Assembly: GCA_902571915.1 (NCBI GenBank)
Contig: CACGDY010000003.1
Coordinates: 1 to 41,878, forward strand
DNA: 41,878 nucleotides
Source of the DNA: an uncultured Pelagibacteraceae bacterium
Lineage (GTDB): Bacteria > Pseudomonadota > Alphaproteobacteria > Pelagibacterales > Pelagibacteraceae
Reading direction: 5' to 3'
Part shown: piece by piece, positions 4,349-20,822 of the stretch
Layout of the letters: each line of letters begins with the position of its first letter
Numbering within the stretch: position 1 is the stretch's first letter
Notes under the pieces: generated by a model
The model's database searches: none
What the model was told of the DNA's origin: nothing
Seen by the model: the letters and a program-made list of their open reading frames with translations, nothing else
Made by a program: the position numbers and the translations under genes

Positions 4349-4639
4349 TTGCCAATAGTAAAATCAAAACTAATAAAACAATTATCCAAAAACTATCCAA
4401 ATTTTCTTAAAAAAGATCTTGAGAAATTTATAAATATTATTTTAAAAGAAATTAAATTTACACTTAAAAGAGGCGAGAGAGTAGAATTAAGAGGTTTTGG
4501 CGTTTTTTACACTAAGATACAAAAAGCAAGAATTTCAAGAAATCCCAAAACTGGAGAAAAAGTTAATACCCCAAAAAAAAGAACAATTAACTTCAAAATG
4601 GCAAAGGATTTGTTTAAAAAAATAAATAATGAAAAATAA
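4349..4639 (+). CDS. ihfB: Integration host factor beta subunit (HU/IHF family)
   Basis: The 96-aa nucleoid protein uses a TTG start, chosen because it gives the family amino terminus (PIVKSKLIKQLSKNYP) 11 nt after rpsA. The core RVELRGFGVF and the DNA-intercalating arm region ARISRNPKTGEKV match IHF-beta (RNPKTG with the turn Pro). It bends DNA as a heterodimer with IHF-alpha. Position directly after rpsA is diagnostic for ihfB over hupB. The last 11 nt overlap the start of pyrF, suggesting translational coupling. Confidence 0.92.
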   Translation: MPIVKSKLIKQLSKNYPNFLKKDLEKFINIILKEIKFTLKRGERVELRGFGVFYTKIQKARISRNPKTGEKVNTPKKRTINFKMAKDLFKKINNEK

Positions 4640-5303
4640 TAAAATATTTGTCGCTTGCGATAGCACCAATATTTCAAAAATTAAAAATATCATTAACAAA
4701 ACCAAAAACTCTAAATTAATTATTGGATATAAATTTGGTTTAGAATTTTTAAACTCTAAAAAGGGAAGAAATTTCATTTCAAATCTAAAAAATGAGATTA
4801 TTTTTGCTGATTTAAAACTTCACGATATTCCTAATACATGTGTTTCTACAATAAAGGCAATTAAAGATTTAAAAATAAATTATTTAACAATACATATAAG
4901 TTCTGGCTTGAAAGCTTTATCATCAGCAAAAAAAGCATCCGGTAGAATTAAATTAATTGGAGTAACAGTATTAACTTCCTTAGACAATAAAGCATTAAAA
5001 GAGATTGGCTTTAATAAAGATGTAAAAAAATTAGTTTTACATCAAGCAAAACTTGCAGCGAAAGCCAAATTAGATGCCATTGTTTGTAGCGCACAAGAAG
5101 TGAATTTAGTAAAAAAAGTATTTAAAAAAGAAATAATTACCCCAGGTATAAGATTTGATAACAGCAAAAACGATCAAAAAAGAATAATGACACCTAAGCA
5201 AGCATATAATAATGGAAGTGATTGGTTGGTTATTGGAAGACCAATAACCAAAGGCAACATAAAGAAAAATATTAATAATTTGTTAAATCATTTAAATCAA
5301 TGA
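4629..5303 (+). CDS. pyrF: Orotidine 5'-phosphate decarboxylase
   Basis: This 224-aa TIM barrel decarboxylates OMP to UMP, the last step of pyrimidine synthesis. The catalytic tetrad region is ADLKLHDIPNT (Asp61, Lys63, Asp66), and the phosphate-binding end is TPGIRF and WLVIGRPI. Length is normal for the bacterial group I enzyme. It overlaps ihfB by 11 nt and shares an ATGA junction with trpF downstream, so the gene sits inside one long polycistron from rpsA to folC. Confidence 0.95.
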   Translation: MKNNKIFVACDSTNISKIKNIINKTKNSKLIIGYKFGLEFLNSKKGRNFISNLKNEIIFADLKLHDIPNTCVSTIKAIKDLKINYLTIHISSGLKALSSAKKASGRIKLIGVTVLTSLDNKALKEIGFNKDVKKLVLHQAKLAAKAKLDAIVCSAQEVNLVKKVFKKEIITPGIRFDNSKNDQKRIMTPKQAYNNGSDWLVIGRPITKGNIKKNINNLLNHLNQ

Positions 5304-5923
5304 TCAAAGGATTGAAAATATGTGGAGTGTCAGATCCTGTTACTTTAAGATTCATACTAAGTCATCCTTTTCCTCCAAACTACATTGGATTTATAACAAA
5401 TTATGAAAAAAGCAAAAGGTACGTTGATTATGAAAGACTTAAAGAATTATTAAAAGTAAATAAGAAAAATATTAATTTTGTATCTGTAATGGTAAAACCA
5501 AGTGATTTTTTTTTAGAAAAAATAAAAGATTTAAATTTTGATTACTATCAGCTTTACGACGTAAGTCCCGAGCGAACCAAAAAAATTAAGGAAAGTAAAA
5601 AGATAAAAATCATTTCAGCTCTCACAATTAATAATGAAAAAGACGTTTCCCTATATAAAAATTATATTGGTATATCTGAAATTATTTTATTTGATGGTAA
5701 GGGTTACGAAAAATCTGAAAGTTTTGATCATAGTTTAATAGATGATGTACCCGATGAATTAGATAAAATGATTGCAGGCAATATCCAAATAAATGATATA
5801 CCTAGCTTTAAAAATAAAGACTTTATTATTGATCTCAGTGGAGCATTAGAAGACCAGAATGGAAAAAAAGATATTAATAAAATCGATAAATTGTTAAATT
5901 TATTTAAAGAAAATGAAACTTAA
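5300..5923 (+). CDS. trpF: Phosphoribosylanthranilate isomerase, divergent
   Basis: The 207-aa TIM barrel is assigned from the KICGV start motif with catalytic Cys8, a GF strand near residue 30, IILFDGKG carrying the expected acid Asp132, and a closing IDLSGALEDQNGKKD that resembles the family DVSSGVE...G.KD. The family's VQLHG strand is QLYDVS (84-89), SPR is not evident, and the late phosphate-binding motif is weak. The call rests partly on position: pyrF-trpF-trpB-trpA is a known alphaproteobacterial order. The start shares ATGA with the pyrF stop. Function is inferred; both catalytic residues appear present. Confidence 0.75.
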   Translation: MIKGLKICGVSDPVTLRFILSHPFPPNYIGFITNYEKSKRYVDYERLKELLKVNKKNINFVSVMVKPSDFFLEKIKDLNFDYYQLYDVSPERTKKIKESKKIKIISALTINNEKDVSLYKNYIGISEIILFDGKGYEKSESFDHSLIDDVPDELDKMIAGNIQINDIPSFKNKDFIIDLSGALEDQNGKKDINKIDKLLNLFKENET

Positions 5924-7157
5924 AAAAAGAGTTCCGGTTATTGATCAAGGAAATTCGCTTGGATTTTGGGGTGGTAAATTTGGAGGAAACTTCGTTCCTG
6001 AAACTTTAAAAAAGCCAATAGAGGATTTAGAAATTTTATTTAATAAATTAAAAAAGGATAGAAAATTTATAAATGAGAGAGATAAATACTTTAAAAATTG
6101 GGTCGGGTCTCCCACAAGATTTATAAAACTAGAAAATCTTACTAATCATATTAATGGTGCTCAAATTTGGTCCAAAGTTGTATCAGATGCTAATGGAGGG
6201 GCCCATAAAATTTACAACGCTACTGTTCACTGTTTGCTTGCAAAACGATCGGGTAAAAAGATTATATGTGGCGACACCGGTGCTGGCTATGCAGGTAAAA
6301 TGTTAAGTATGGCAGCTAAAAAGTTTGGTTTAAAATGTAAGATATTTATGGGTGCAAAGGATATTGCTAGGCAACAGCCAAATGTAAAAGCGATGAAAAA
6401 AAACGGTGCACAAGTAATACCCGTCTACTCAGGAAGTCAAACACTTGTAGATGCTGTCTCAGAATGTATGAGATTTTGGGTTGCAAATTGTGATACAACA
6501 GCAATGTGTGTTGGTAGTACTGTTGGTCCAGCAGTTTTTGTTCGTATATGTGGATGGAGCACAAGCCAAATTTCAAGAGAGTTAAAAGTACAGCTGATTG
6601 AGGAATTTGGATCAATTCCAAAAAAACTTAAGTTATACAATTGTGTTGGGGGTGGGAGTTCGAGCTTTGGATTTTGGAATGAATTTATGGATTATGATAA
6701 AAAACAAGTTGAGTTTATTGGGGTAGAGGCTGGTGGACCTGCGAAAAGTAAAAAACATGCAGCTCCTTTAACCTATGGTTCAAAGATTGGGATTCTACAT
6801 GGTGCAGCTCAATATGTGAATCAGAATTCAGATGGACAAATAGAAGAGACTGAGTCAATTTCTGCAGGACTTGATTATCCTGGAATTTCTCCACTCCATT
6901 GTTTTTTAAAAGATACAAAAAGAGCCAGATATACATCTGCAAGTGACGAAGAAGCTTTAAATGCTTTTAAACTTGTGACAAAATTTGAGGATTTAAGACC
7001 TTCCTTAGAACCAAGCCATGCTTTTTTTGTCGCTCTTAAAGAAGCAAAAAAACTTAGCAAAGATACTGTGGTAGTAATCAATAGTTGTGGCGATGCTTAC
7101 AAAGACCGTGGAATTTTAAAAAAAAGATTGGGTAAAAAATATGTTAAATCCAATTAG
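5913..7157 (+). CDS. trpB: Tryptophan synthase beta chain, highly divergent
   Basis: The 414-aa fold-type II PLP enzyme aligns with TrpB end to end: GGNFVPETL, the PLP lysine in GGAHK (Lys99), CVGGGSSSFGF, IGVEAGG, ILHG, SISAGLDYPGISPLH, SLEPSHA. Several otherwise invariant motifs are changed. KREDxNHTGAHK reads KVVSDANGGAHK. ETGAGQHG reads DTGAGYAG, so the catalytic Glu109 is Asp121, Gln114 is Tyr and His115 is Ala. GPHPYP reads GPAVFV. SGRGDKD reads SCGDAYKD, losing Arg379. The frame is uninterrupted and the base composition matches its neighbours, so this is real divergence and not a frameshift. It overlaps trpF by 11 nt and trpA by 17 nt. It may make Trp from indole and Ser, or a related amino acid. 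Confidence 0.8.
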   Translation: MKLKKRVPVIDQGNSLGFWGGKFGGNFVPETLKKPIEDLEILFNKLKKDRKFINERDKYFKNWVGSPTRFIKLENLTNHINGAQIWSKVVSDANGGAHKIYNATVHCLLAKRSGKKIICGDTGAGYAGKMLSMAAKKFGLKCKIFMGAKDIARQQPNVKAMKKNGAQVIPVYSGSQTLVDAVSECMRFWVANCDTTAMCVGSTVGPAVFVRICGWSTSQISRELKVQLIEEFGSIPKKLKLYNCVGGGSSSFGFWNEFMDYDKKQVEFIGVEAGGPAKSKKHAAPLTYGSKIGILHGAAQYVNQNSDGQIEETESISAGLDYPGISPLHCFLKDTKRARYTSASDEEALNAFKLVTKFEDLRPSLEPSHAFFVALKEAKKLSKDTVVVINSCGDAYKDRGILKKRLGKKYVKSN

Positions 7158-7941
7158 TGTTGCATTTAAAAAAGCAAAGGCAGAAAATAGACCTGCTTTA
7201 TTAACCTATACTGTTGCTGGTGATAGCTCAAAAAAACAATCTTTGGATATATTAAAATCTATATCTAAAAATGCAGATATTTTAGAAGTAGGTGTGCCTC
7301 ATAATACTCCTGTTGCAGATGGAAGCCAAATTCAAACTAGTGCGTATAGAGCAATTAAAAAAGGTATTAAAATAAATGATATATTTAGGATCGTTAAAGA
7401 TTTTAAAAAATTTGATAAAAACAAACCTATTATATTGATGGGTTACTATAATATGATTTTTCAATATGGAGATAACAACTTCTTAAACAAATGTAAAACC
7501 TCAGGAGTAAATGGATTAATAGTTGTAGATTTACCTTGGCCAGAAAATAAAAATTTCGCAAAAAAATGTAAAAAAAAATCAATTTATTTTATTCAACTTT
7601 TGTCACCTACTACAACAAGTAAAAGACTTAAAAAAATTATAGAAAACTCACATCCAATGAATTATTTTATATCAATGCTAAGCACTACAGGTGGCAAATT
7701 GAAAGTATCACCTCGAGAAATACTTAAAAATTACAATAGGATAAAAAAAATTAATCCTAAAAAAGAGATTGTGATTGGTTTTGGAATTACAGATAAGACA
7801 ATTAGAAAGCTTAAATCTGCTGATGGATTAGTAGTGGGAAGTGCTATTTGTAAAGAAATTACGAGAAGTTTAAATAGTAGACAAAATCCTGTCACAAATG
7901 TAGGTAAGTTAGTAAGAAAATTAAAAAATAGAATAAAATGA
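7141..7941 (+). CDS. trpA: Tryptophan synthase alpha chain
   Basis: This 266-aa TIM barrel cleaves indole-3-glycerol phosphate for TrpB. Numbering coincides with the enteric enzyme: catalytic Glu49 (LEVGV) and Asp60 (VADG) are present, followed by the IQTSAYRAIKKG helix, LMGYYN, VVDLPWPEN, VIGFGI and GLVVGSAI. Loop 2, normally PFSDPxADG, reads PHNTPVADG, so Asp56, which contacts the beta subunit in the enteric enzyme, is Thr56. The YxxSxxGVTG segment is YFISMLSTTGG. The start overlaps trpB by 17 nt and the stop shares ATGA with accD. Confidence 0.88.
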   Translation: MLNPISVAFKKAKAENRPALLTYTVAGDSSKKQSLDILKSISKNADILEVGVPHNTPVADGSQIQTSAYRAIKKGIKINDIFRIVKDFKKFDKNKPIILMGYYNMIFQYGDNNFLNKCKTSGVNGLIVVDLPWPENKNFAKKCKKKSIYFIQLLSPTTTSKRLKKIIENSHPMNYFISMLSTTGGKLKVSPREILKNYNRIKKINPKKEIVIGFGITDKTIRKLKSADGLVVGSAICKEITRSLNSRQNPVTNVGKLVRKLKNRIK

Positions 7942-8864
7942 ATTGGATCACTAAAATAATCAAAGCAGGTGAAAAAATTAAATCTGCCATTCATAAAAGA
8001 GCATCTAAGGAAGATATTGCAAATAGTGACTGGACTTCTTGTTGCAAAGGTCCAATATTAAAAAAAGACTTAGAGGAAAATCTTTGGGTTTGTCCTGATT
8101 GTAATAAACACCACAGAATTAAACCAAAACAAAGATTTGATATTTTATTTGGAAAAGATAATTACAAAATATTCCAAACACCCATCCCGAAAGATGATCC
8201 TTTAAATTGGACAGACTCAAAATCTTACAAAGATAGATTAAAATCTGTCAGAAAAAAAACAGGTATGGATTGTGGGATGATGGTCGTAAGTGGGGTAATC
8301 AATGATATTAAAATTACTGCAGTTGCATCTGATTTTGATTTTTTAGGCGCGTCAATGGCGGCTGCAGAAGGAGAAGCTTTCTTGTACGGTATTCAGCATG
8401 CAATTGAGAATAAAACTCCTTTTTTGTGTGTAAGCGCAGGGGGAGGAATGAGAATGATGGAAAGTTTAATTTCTTTATCTCAAATGACAAGAACCACACT
8501 AGCAATAAATGAATTAAAAAATAATTATCTTCCATATCTTGTTTGCATAACAGACCCAACTGCTGGTGGGATCACAGCTTCCTATGCAATGTTAGGTGAT
8601 ATTCATATAGCTGAGCCCGAAGCGCTAATCGCTTTTGCTGGAGCAAGAGTAATTCAAGGAACTGTTAAAGAAGAATTGCCAGAAGGTTTTCAAAAGAGTG
8701 AATACGTTGAAAAGACTGGTTTTATTGATTTAATTGTTGAAAGAAAAGATCTTGCTGAAAAAATTGGAACTCTATTGTCAATATTGTTAAAAAAAAATTC
8801 TGTTATAAGCACTGAACAAGATGAAACTACAGAAAATACTCAGTCGCTTTCTAAAATTGCATAA
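7938..8864 (+). CDS. accD: Acetyl-CoA carboxylase carboxyltransferase beta subunit
   Basis: The 308-aa subunit transfers CO2 from biotin to acetyl-CoA together with AccA. Recognisable parts are the amino-terminal zinc-ribbon region, then FLGASMAAAEGEA, ITDPTAGGITASYAMLGDIHIAEPEALIAFAGARVI and LPEGFQKSEYV. The zinc ribbon should be CxxC...CxxC; here the first pair reads SCCKGP (Cys35, Cys36, with Gly38 where the second ligand belongs), while the second pair CPDC (52-55) is intact. The SGGARMQE motif is SAGGGMRMMES. Position between trpA and folC is the standard alphaproteobacterial order. folC begins inside its last 44 nt. Confidence 0.93.
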   Translation: MNWITKIIKAGEKIKSAIHKRASKEDIANSDWTSCCKGPILKKDLEENLWVCPDCNKHHRIKPKQRFDILFGKDNYKIFQTPIPKDDPLNWTDSKSYKDRLKSVRKKTGMDCGMMVVSGVINDIKITAVASDFDFLGASMAAAEGEAFLYGIQHAIENKTPFLCVSAGGGMRMMESLISLSQMTRTTLAINELKNNYLPYLVCITDPTAGGITASYAMLGDIHIAEPEALIAFAGARVIQGTVKEELPEGFQKSEYVEKTGFIDLIVERKDLAEKIGTLLSILLKKNSVISTEQDETTENTQSLSKIA

Positions 8865-10086
8865 AAAAGAAATTGATCTAAGCTTAGATCGAATAAATCA
8901 TCTTTGTGAAAAACTGGGTAATCCTCAGGATAAAATTAAGGCAATCAGCATTGTTGGTACAAATGGTAAAAACTCAACCATTCAAGCTTGTTATTCGATT
9001 TTAAAAGAGGCAGGAATAAAGTGTAACGTTTACACCAGTCCTCATATTCAAAAAATAAATGAAAGATTTGTTTTTAACAATCAACAACTTGGAGATGATG
9101 AACTGGCTTCTTTATTTGAGGAAGTTGAAAAAGTTAATGGTGATAATCCAATAACATTCTTTGAAATTTTGACTGCATGTTATTTTTATAAAGCAACTCA
9201 ATATCCTGATAATATTAATCTCATTGAGGCAGGTTTGTTTCATAGGTTTGATGCAACAAATATCTTAAAAAATAATCTTGCAAGTATTGTAACTTCTATA
9301 TCAATGGACCATTTAGACTGGCTTCCAGAAAATGAGAGAACTATTGATAAGATTATTTTTGAAAAAACTTCAAACCTTTTAAATTCAAATATTATTGTTG
9401 CAAAACAATATCCTATTTCAACATTAAAAAAGATAAAAAAAACTATTCACCAAAATCAATCTAATAAGTATTTTTTTAATGAAGATTTTTCATTCTCAAA
9501 TGGAGAAAATGAATTCTTTTATTATGAAGATAAATTTGGTGGATTAAAACTACCAAAACCAAATGTATTAGGTCAATTTCAACAGGAAAATATTTCAACA
9601 GCTATTGCAACTCTAAGAATTTTAGATCTTAGTATCGAAGATCATCATATAAAAAAAGGTATTCAAAAGATCGATAACATTGCAAGGCTTCAAAAAATTG
9701 AGTCAGGTAAATTAAAAGATTTAGTTAAAGACAATCTTTTTTTAATATCTGGAGATCATAATGAAGATGGAGCAAGAGTATTAAATGAATATTTAAAAAG
9801 CCTAGATTGTAAGAAACACGTCATTATTGGTATGATGAAAAATAAAGAACATGAGAAATATATTAACCACTTTAAAGATATTGCCTCAATAACAACCGTA
9901 GATATTAAAAACCAGCCAAATGCAATTAGTGGACTTAAATTAAAAGAAAAATTTAAAAATATCCCAAATGTAAATTATAAAGAAAATATTGAAGAGGCGA
10001 TCAAGAGCATAAATCTAAATCAAGGAGATCTACTGATAGTTACTGGATCTTTATATCTTTGTTCGGAAGTTTTGAATTTAAATTAG
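8821..10086 (+). CDS. folC: Bifunctional folylpolyglutamate / dihydrofolate synthase
   Basis: This 421-aa Mur-ligase-like enzyme adds glutamate to folates. The start is kept because the segment from residue 1 (KILSRFLKLHKKEIDLSLDRI) matches the family amino terminus, despite a 44-nt overlap with accD. The P-loop GTNGKGS is GTNGKNS (46-52) and the GLGGRxDATN motif is GLFHRFDATN; MDHLDWL is intact. A carboxy-terminal ligase domain with SGDHNEDGARVL follows. The stop codon overlaps the stop of the convergent thioredoxin gene by 4 nt, leaving no room for a terminator. Confidence 0.9.
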   Translation: MKLQKILSRFLKLHKKEIDLSLDRINHLCEKLGNPQDKIKAISIVGTNGKNSTIQACYSILKEAGIKCNVYTSPHIQKINERFVFNNQQLGDDELASLFEEVEKVNGDNPITFFEILTACYFYKATQYPDNINLIEAGLFHRFDATNILKNNLASIVTSISMDHLDWLPENERTIDKIIFEKTSNLLNSNIIVAKQYPISTLKKIKKTIHQNQSNKYFFNEDFSFSNGENEFFYYEDKFGGLKLPKPNVLGQFQQENISTAIATLRILDLSIEDHHIKKGIQKIDNIARLQKIESGKLKDLVKDNLFLISGDHNEDGARVLNEYLKSLDCKKHVIIGMMKNKEHEKYINHFKDIASITTVDIKNQPNAISGLKLKEKFKNIPNVNYKENIEEAIKSINLNQGDLLIVTGSLYLCSEVLNLN

Positions 10087-19176: not shown

Positions 19177-19569
19177 TTAAATCTCGTTTTGATCTTCTAG
19201 TCTTACTTCAATTGTTTCTGTAGTCAAAGAAATGTGAGCATTATTTTCAAAAATAAGGTTAATTTGATAATCGTCTTTGTTTTTCATATAATCAATAGCT
19301 ATCAATTTTAAAACTAAATCATTATTTCTTTGATCTATATTTTTTGATTTTACTTTTTCAACAAAATCGAATCTGCATATGCTGTTAATTTGTTGATCTT
19401 CTTTATCTGCTTCTATCTTATTGCGCTTTAAAGATAACAAGAAAACTTTGTTTGATTTAAGATATTTAATTTCTGAAACTTTAACTTCTGAGCCACTACT
19501 GCATGTTGATATCATATTTAATCCATCATTGTCAGTTGCTATAATTCTTGCTAAATATCTTTTATCCAT
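19177..19569 (-). CDS. DUF2948-like conserved protein
   Basis: This 130-aa cytoplasmic protein has no membrane segment and no known catalytic motif. Its assignment to the alphaproteobacterial DUF2948 family is from position (murA-DUF2948-hisD is a conserved order) and from general features: LARIIATDNDGLNMIS at the start, SICRFDFVEKVKS in the middle and a beta-strand end IEVRLED. The start ATG overlaps the murA stop by 1 nt. Function is unknown. Confidence 0.7.
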   Translation of the reverse strand: MDKRYLARIIATDNDGLNMISTCSSGSEVKVSEIKYLKSNKVFLLSLKRNKIEADKEDQQINSICRFDFVEKVKSKNIDQRNNDLVLKLIAIDYMKNKDDYQINLIFENNAHISLTTETIEVRLEDQNEI

Positions 19570-20822
19570 TATTTAAAACGCTTAATTTTAGCTCCAACTT
19601 TTTTTAACTTTTTTTCTATATCTTCATAACCGCGATCGAGATGGTAAATTCTATTTATTATCGATTTACCTTTTGCAGTAAGAGCTGCAAGAATTAAGGA
19701 CACCGAAGCTCTTAGGTCTGTGGCCATCAATTCTGCTGATGCAAAATTTATATTTCCATCTATGATTGCTTTATTCCCTTTTATTGAAATTTGAGCACCC
19801 ATTCGGTTTAATTCAGCAACATGCATAAATCTATTTTCAAAAATATTTTCTTGAATAAAAGATTTTTTATTTGCTTTACATAGTAAAACCATCATCTGAG
19901 CCTGTAAATCTGTTGGAAAACCTGGATAAGGTGCAGTTTTTATATTTACACTTTTTACTTTTTTGTTTCCAGTTATGTTAATTTCATTTTTTTTCACAAT
20001 TAATTTAGCACCAATTTTTTTAAGAATATTAATTTCTGTATTTATTATATTTGGGTCAATATTTTTAATCTTTAGATTGCCGCCTGTAATGGCAGCAGCA
20101 ATTAAATAAGTTCCAGCCTCTATTCTATCGAACATTACTGAATAAATTGTGTCTTTAATTGACTCAACGCCACGAATTTTAATTGATCTTTTTGAAATCC
20201 ATTTTAAGTTACATCCAGTCTTATTTAAAAACTTAACTAAGTCTTTTATTTCTGGTTCAACAGCACAATTCTTTAAAATTGTAACCCCCTTGGCCAAGCT
20301 CGCAGCAATTATCAAATTTTCGGTAGCACCAACAGAAATTTTTGAAAATCTTATTTTAGATCCAACCAATCCTTTAGGAGCAGAAGCATGAACATAGCCT
20401 TGTGAAATTCTATATTTTACTCCTAATTTAGATAGCGCTTTCAGATGTATATCAATTGGTCTTGTGCCGATTGCACACCCTCCAGGAAGAGATACTTTTG
20501 CATTTCCGAACTTTGCAAGTAATCCTCCTAAGACTAAAATACCAGCTCGCATTGTTTTGACTAAATTATATGAGGCAAATATTTTTTTTTGTTTTGAATT
20601 ATCAATCAATAATTTATCTTTTTCAAATTTTATTTTAGAACCTAAAGATTTAAGTAAATTTATCATGGTTTCTATATCCTTTACTTTTGGCAAGTTGTTC
20701 AAGTAAAGTTTGTTTGAAGATAACAAAGTTGCTGCCAAAATAGGCAGTGATGCATTTTTTGAGCCTGATATTTTAATTTGTCCTTTGAGACGCTTTGGAC
20801 CAAAGACCTTTAGTTTTTGCAT
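19569..20822 (-). CDS. murA: UDP-N-acetylglucosamine 1-carboxyvinyltransferase
   Basis: The 417-aa enzyme transfers enolpyruvate from PEP to UDP-GlcNAc, the first committed step of peptidoglycan synthesis. It has the GSKNASLPILAA start (Lys22, Asn23), the active-site Cys116 in PGGCAIGTRPIDIH (fosfomycin target residue present), and FPTDLQAQMM. It is homologous to AroA, also in this window. It lies 2 nt after dcd and overlaps the DUF2948 start by 1 nt. Confidence 0.97.
   Translation of the reverse strand: MQKLKVFGPKRLKGQIKISGSKNASLPILAATLLSSNKLYLNNLPKVKDIETMINLLKSLGSKIKFEKDKLLIDNSKQKKIFASYNLVKTMRAGILVLGGLLAKFGNAKVSLPGGCAIGTRPIDIHLKALSKLGVKYRISQGYVHASAPKGLVGSKIRFSKISVGATENLIIAASLAKGVTILKNCAVEPEIKDLVKFLNKTGCNLKWISKRSIKIRGVESIKDTIYSVMFDRIEAGTYLIAAAITGGNLKIKNIDPNIINTEINILKKIGAKLIVKKNEINITGNKKVKSVNIKTAPYPGFPTDLQAQMMVLLCKANKKSFIQENIFENRFMHVAELNRMGAQISIKGNKAIIDGNINFASAELMATDLRASVSLILAALTAKGKSIINRIYHLDRGYEDIEKKLKKVGAKIKRFK

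Follow-up and report, generated by a model that had tools for sequence, protein, structure and literature searches.

The trpB gene at positions 5913 to 7157 of the window (the whole stretch of 41,878 nucleotides analysed here, from an uncultured member of the Pelagibacteraceae) very probably encodes a working beta subunit of the SAR11 tryptophan synthase, a reading held with a probability of roughly 0.85. Judged from sequence comparison, this SAR11-type TrpB (type I) is most likely a working subunit whose indole pocket has been remodelled and whose charge pair with the alpha subunit has been lost. Its role is ordinary and its construction unusual, and the lineage was noticed as early as 2008. 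Tryptophan synthase is a textbook case of channelling and allostery whose core is taken to include Glu109, Gln114, His115 and the pair of alpha Asp56 and beta Lys167, and very abundant marine bacteria apparently make tryptophan with these core parts changed together and held fixed. The variant is thus a natural, multi-site and probably functional one in which it may be tested which parts of the enzyme are essential.

The frame is intact from an ATG start to a TAG stop over 414 amino acids, as the earlier note had stated, and together TrpA and TrpB evidently form a co-inherited pair within a compact gene cluster. The cluster comprises the following genes, which were named from an NCBIfam profile search with the exception of the 96-aa ORF:

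4349 to 4639: 96-aa ORF, its name based on Kagan's P. ubique gene order
4629 to 5303, + strand: pyrF, profile match
5300 to 5923, + strand: trpF, profile match, overlapping pyrF by 4 bases and trpB by 11 bases
5913 to 7157, + strand: trpB, SAR11-type tryptophan synthase beta subunit (ORF, profile, solved-relative and fold matches)
7141 to 7941, + strand: trpA, the partner subunit, overlapping trpB by 17 bases (TIGR00262 213.8 bits, over the cut-off)
7938 to 8864, + strand: accD, profile match
8821 to 10086, + strand: folC, profile match

The trpF frame is divergent in its own right, its top NCBIfam score being 92.6 bits against a cut-off of 216, and is recognised by Pfam as PRAI. The window TrpB scores 378.0 bits against TIGR00263 (cut-off 392.45), and in the same clade a HTCC1062-like member scores 403.7 bits and a deep member (L249) 379.8 bits; that clade members fall slightly below or above the TrpB cut-off calls for caution in annotation. 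Among solved structures TrpB chains are the closest to the window protein (LBCA TrpB, E 1.5e-99). The earlier note had proposed a structure prediction, and the model built from 13 sequences including two distant TrpBs (mean pLDDT 73) has a predicted TrpB fold that aligns with P. furiosus TrpB over 352 residues (Z about 41, rmsd 2.6); the 50 structure matches listed for this model are without exception beta chains of tryptophan synthase or engineered versions of these (Z 39.2-41.5). A previous model from 21 close relatives reached a mean pLDDT of 40 and was set aside. Model residues 277-327, which include the Asp305 equivalent, have a pLDDT below 50, and side-chain geometry was therefore left uninterpreted.

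With E. coli MG1655 TrpB as the reference for comparison and numbering, the following positions of the pair, found by alignment, are central to the argument:

6174 to 6197, + strand: beta residues 88-95, KVVSDANG in place of KREDLLHG (E. coli 76-83) or KREDLNHT
6207 to 6209, + strand: beta Lys99, the PLP lysine K87
6273 to 6275, + strand: beta Asp121 in place of the catalytic Glu109
6288 to 6293, + strand: beta Tyr126-Ala127 in place of Gln114-His115
6447 to 6449, + strand: beta Val179 in place of Lys167, the partner of alpha Asp56
6525 to 6542, + strand: beta GPAVFV (205-210) in place of GPHPYP
7092 to 7094, + strand: beta Asp394 in place of Arg379
7306 to 7308, + strand: alpha Thr56 in place of Asp56, co-varying with beta Val167

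Every substitution that the earlier note had listed (E109D, Q114Y, H115A, KVVSDANG, GPAVFV and the loss of R379) is present relative to E. coli TrpB, and these are not peculiarities of one genome. The indole-activating Glu109 is replaced by Asp in all 121 type I rows chosen by locus. Counts for the other positions refer to 184 locus rows with D109, which represent 140 distinct proteins. Position 114 is Tyr in 172 and Met in 12 of these, position 115 is Ala in 169, Asn in 8, Phe in 6 and Gln in one, and position 379 is Asp in 172 and another residue in 12. Beyond the substitutions already listed, K167V, N236S and S297T are found in 184/184 rows, and position 148 has also changed (Ala 166, Ser 6, Phe 6, Arg 5, Lys 1). 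The indole-pocket and closing residues (D109, Y/M114, A/F/N/Q115, mostly A148, V167, S236 and T297) have changed as a set that is fixed for the most part. When the Salmonella enzyme is closed, Gln114 hydrogen-bonds Asn145 and Arg148, and the sub-site for indole extends between His115 and Phe306 (PMC9512447, in excerpt). It is because of these contacts of Gln114 that its pairing with position 148 matters: among 243 rows (242 loci and E. coli) the 114-148 pairs are Tyr-Ala in 166, Tyr-Ser in 6, Gln-Arg in 22 and Gln-Lys in 21, and the remaining 28 have Met or Ala at 114 (24), Gln-Val (3) or Gln-Leu (1).

Much of the enzyme is nevertheless that of canonical TrpB1 (E. coli and Salmonella, TIGR00263), with which the SAR11 type shares the fold, the PLP lysine, the GGGS and TGAG loops, the Arg141-Asp305 pair and the clustering with trpF and trpA. 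The PLP lysine K87, whose retention as Lys99 the earlier note had recognised, the GGGS loop that binds the PLP phosphate, TGAG, and both residues of the closing salt bridge, Arg141 and Asp305, are each kept in 184/184 rows. The yardstick is a set of 109 positions whose constancy reaches 95% or more over 35 canonical TrpB1 rows; across the 140 distinct type I rows 69 of them are kept, 33 lost and 7 mixed, so that the assertion that most invariant residues had been lost was right about losses but worded too strongly. The kept constants include K87, H86, the T110-G-A-G113 loop, R141, N145, GGGS 232-235, S301, D305, E350, K382 and D383. Cys377, which is Ser in E. coli, is nothing special to the SAR11 type, since canonical alphaproteobacterial TrpBs carry it too. 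Chance or sequencing error was rejected as the source of the substitutions, the same residues occurring in 184 rows and 140 distinct proteins, as was a pseudogene or assembly error, frame and residues recurring across many separately assembled genomes. One type I trpB (G060:C11:12457-13563, locus L023) is interrupted by five in-frame stops, with a 5' portion standing apart, and looks broken in its assembly. Another genome (G580, locus L247) has an open trpB frame whose early part is without ATG, GTG or TTG, and its trpA and trpC look shortened or split.

In the canonical enzyme beta Lys167 and alpha Asp56 form an inter-subunit bridge. This charge pair is absent from type I and has been changed on both sides: all 182 type I loci holding both genes combine beta Val167 with alpha Thr, Ala or Cys56. 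Over 236 loci, Val pairs with Thr in 158, Ala in 13 and Cys in 11, Leu with Thr in 7, Lys with Asp in 26 and with Glu in 20, and Arg with Glu in one. The two positions hence agree in 236/236 loci (182 V-T/A/C, 7 L-T and 47 K/R-D/E), and each changes twice on the tree, together, which as two events is too few for a correlation test. Simulations link beta Tyr279 to both beta Lys167 and alpha Asp56 (PMC8187860, in excerpt). The catalytic residues of TrpA are retained, with Glu49 and Asp60 kept in the window and, in type I loci, Glu49 and Thr183 each in 182/182 and Asp60 in 181/182 (Glu in L119).

It is proposed that TrpA converts indole-3-glycerol phosphate to indole, which would pass to TrpB, where serine on PLP would yield the aminoacrylate. 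Asp109, one methylene shorter than Glu109, would supply the hydrogen bond to N1 of indole, and the pocket around it would be widened by His115 to Ala and refilled by Tyr114. In the closed state Tyr114-Ala148 would stand where Gln114 otherwise contacts Arg148, and a neutral Thr56-Val167 contact would substitute for the charge pair of alpha Asp56 and beta Lys167, so that the coupling of the subunits is probably unlike that of the enteric enzyme. The product would be L-tryptophan. In work said to be that of Brzovic in 1992, Glu109 to Asp in the Salmonella enzyme reportedly lowers activity, and no E109D mutant study was found in the open-access literature searched. It also counts against the proposal that the Glu109 interaction has been called essential to indole activation (PMC9512447, in excerpt). 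So do the score of the window protein below the NCBIfam cut-off for TrpB and the SAR11 genomes in which no TrpB match was found. An altered substrate or altered kinetics, as the earlier note had suggested, is possible for the SAR11 type.

The SAR11-type TrpB is the usual TrpB of SAR11, with its odd residues fixed. A survey took in 398 SAR11 genomes, the window's own among them and the others drawn from the order with a requested completeness of at least 75%. A TrpB match at E 1e-9 was found in 367/398, and the best match was type I (at most 8.1e-105) in 346/398, as classed by E-value rather than by individual inspection; 19 others had another TrpB1 and 2 (G715 and G797) only a TrpB2-like match. 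In 31/398 genomes (such as G516, G527, G584, G585, G588, G609 and G654) no TrpB match was found at E 1e-9. Among such genomes trpF was matched in 0/14 tested, by a search run without a positive control, and trpC was present in 7/7 tested; either an assembly gap at a variable region or a real loss may account for them.

In a tree of 69 TrpB1 rows the 29 type I rows, from two families of the order, form a clade with support 100/100 on a stem of 0.79 changes per column, and the other side of this branch holds canonical alphaproteobacterial and other TrpB1s as well as a second SAR11 type (type II, below). Type I stays with TrpB1 when TrpB2 is added as the outgroup, although its exact placement is unsure because long branches meet there. 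TrpB2 is a distant homologue that occurs in some SAR11 genomes (26-28% identity), but the window protein is far removed from it: a branch of length 1.98 sets the four TrpB2 rows apart from every TrpB1 row, type I included, and the window protein scores 90.5 bits against TIGR01415 (TrpB2, cut-off 518.85). At four SAR11 loci (L125, L271, L272 and L274) there is a TrpB2-like gene, some 453 aa long, and no trpA match was found in the stretch fetched. The position of type I agrees with the third, distinct group of P. ubique and Sargasso or environmental sequences that was counted as trpB_1 by Kagan et al. (2008; PMC2395257, in excerpt). That cluster, with its P. ubique and Sargasso Sea sequences and single trpB, is very probably the same lineage, although the excerpt gives genetic distance only, and neither the residues nor the exchange of cassettes. 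The idea of a new TrpB subclass has therefore held as regards a separate lineage under selection but not as regards newness. The earlier note had set against it a placement well inside canonical TrpB1 with the substitutions common in tryptophan-making relatives; the substitutions are indeed fixed in close relatives that very probably make tryptophan with this enzyme, but the clade does not fall inside canonical TrpB1.

The type was not seen outside the order in the genome, plasmid, phage and viral samples. Among the matches listed from a sample of the class (n=385), only the window's genome and four others of its family (74-91% identity) exceed 47%, which is the top identity outside that family, and a sample of the phylum (n=398) gave two matches at E 1e-105, from the window's genome and from a member of its family. 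No recent transfer from outside SAR11 was thus seen in these class and phylum (Pseudomonadota) samples. All of the relatives kept from assembled contigs (80 of 295 loci) are Pelagibacteraceae, which places the window in SAR11. Spread by mobile elements was considered and rejected: matches occur in 119/72,556 plasmid and 19/50,697 phage records, all below 60% identity, and viral contigs scanned with the window protein gave no match. Two loci, with 47-48% identity to E. coli TrpB, came from a wider TrpB scan.

The same gene slot holds different trpBA pairs in some SAR11 genomes. Further non-canonical types occupy the slot equivalent to 5913-7941 of the window among loci L111-L118 and L251-L264. 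Type II (for example L111/L208, L112, L114, L254, L256 and L263) has an ESGAGQHY/F-like motif, keeps E109 and Lys167 (Arg in L113) with Glu at alpha56, and has D305 changed to Gln or Thr and S297G; a relative of it, type IIb, is found in L118, L251 and L252. Type III (L115, L116 and L258-L262) has ETGASMN/H with K167L, R141K and R379S, and L117 holds a near-canonical trpBA. In L256 the flanking genes are 85% (rpsA), 79% (pyrF), 74% (trpF), 81% (accD) and 74% (folC) identical to those of the window, as against 33% for TrpB and 29% for TrpA. Over 71 loci the Spearman coefficient between the pairwise identities of trpB and trpA is 0.87, whereas that of trpB with pyrF is 0.11, with trpF 0.23 and with accD 0.30, and at the chosen thresholds each TrpA cluster lies within a single TrpB cluster in 71/71 loci. 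Within this slot the two genes evidently change places as a single cassette, and since they are exchanged together the subunits probably function together. This exchange lets alpha-beta co-adaptation be read from sequence.

Whether the enzyme makes tryptophan can be approached through copy number. The search for a second trpB that the earlier note had advised found none in the window's genome (721,616 bases in 27 contigs, 56.7% complete), and each of 11 one-contig SAR11 genomes has one TrpB match at E 1e-9, ten of type I and one (G012) of type II. At E 1e-5, three of the eleven (G486, G397 and G490) add a partial match of 28-30% in a frame of 377-389 aa (28% and 380 aa in G486), which is taken for another PLP enzyme. 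G486 (one contig, 1,308,759 bases), which we take to be HTCC1062 and whose gene order agrees with this, has trpEGDC and trpFBA and a single TrpB of type I. For P. ubique HTCC1062 one trpB and two trp operons have been described (Kagan et al. 2008; PMC2395257, in excerpt). Artificial seawater supplemented with pyruvate, glycine, methionine and vitamins supports growth of both HTCC1062 and HTCC7211, tryptophan being unlisted in the excerpt (PMC8437039); the same holds for excerpts on growth of HTCC1062 in artificial seawater (PMC13198564) and in a medium with glycine betaine and DMSP (PMC5069961). From a single trpB and growth without added tryptophan it follows that the SAR11-type TrpB is very probably what makes the cell's tryptophan, unless an enzyme of another, unknown kind does so. 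Of 26 SAR11 genomes tested 25 have trpC, the exception being the incomplete genome of the window. A search of open-access papers turned up no enzyme assay of TrpB from any SAR11 bacterium.

An unlikely alternative is that the protein is a PLP beta-replacement enzyme whose main co-substrates are other than serine and indole, for instance an activated serine donor or another nucleophile. The changed residues do line the indole and closing region, and Glu105 mutants of bacterial TrpB take phenolic substrates (PMC12727527, in excerpt), but the TGAG loop is unchanged, the pairing with a TrpA that retains its catalytic residues is fixed, and the trp cluster context, the single copy and growth without tryptophan all speak for tryptophan synthesis.

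Selection on the gene bears on a further and much less probable reading, that a dispensable or little-used gene has drifted under relaxed constraint in an AT-rich, streamlined genome. When the window's genes are compared with relatives, of which 80 were fetched and 72 to 78 used for each gene, the median dN/dS is 0.038 for trpB, 0.091 for trpA, 0.104 for pyrF, 0.131 for accD and 0.143 for trpF; dS is near saturation, so that only the rank order is reliable, and the accD set includes divergent alleles. That trpB, at about 0.04, ranks lowest of five neighbouring genes bears out the view of the earlier note that it is under selection and argues against drift, as do the substitutions being fixed across two families of the order rather than scattered. 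The loss of canonical constants in the other SAR11 types as well (27/109 in type II and 41/109 in type III) and the one copy broken in its assembly (G060) would suit drift, but in most of the listed frames the match is free of internal stops, and in six of the stop-bearing rows compared (L003, L008, L009, L018, L029 and L030) the ORF ends within about 4 codons of the aligned end.

It is equally improbable that the protein is a pseudoenzyme that makes no tryptophan and switches TrpA on to release free indole, in the manner of the plant TSB-like protein, since although that TrpB relative is likewise changed at the Glu109 equivalent (PMC12727527, in excerpt) and trpA adjoins trpB in the loci examined, TSB-like is a duplicated copy with Ala, Ser or Pro for Glu and with Glu for Asp305, whereas the SAR11 type keeps the carboxylate as Asp109 together with Arg141-Asp305 in 184/184 rows, and no other TrpB was found in the genomes presumed to be those of strains that grow without added tryptophan.

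The favoured reading of a working beta subunit may be extended, tentatively and with doubt outweighing confidence, to SAR11 having a second chemical and allosteric solution to tryptophan synthase, in which Asp activates indole in a Tyr114/Ala115 pocket, closure proceeds without Gln114-Arg148 and alpha Asp56-beta Lys167, and both the coupling of subunits and the range of donors and nucleophiles differ from those of every TrpB studied. If true, such an enzyme could for example be tuned to scarce serine in a glycine-dependent cell, and the trpBA slot would be a natural series of at least three solutions (types I, II and III) exchanged as cassettes. No description of the pocket remodelling, the loss of the alpha-beta charge pair or the trpBA exchange was found in the open-access literature searched, subscription papers being mostly outside this scope, and the parts of GapMind and the small-genome literature consulted hold nothing on SAR11 TrpB.

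The genes around the cassette vary in their own way. Across the 71 SAR11 loci pyrF, trpF, accD and folC (window 4629-10086) have divergent allele types that are independent of the trpBA type, with identities to the window of 36-95% for accD and 27-74% for folC, and as these flanking alleles do not follow the trpBA type the gene cluster appears to be a mosaic. The window also contains two genes of the EPSP-synthase family, at 1204-2529 and 19569-20822; from position and score the former, close to the trp cluster, looks like aroA and the latter like murA.
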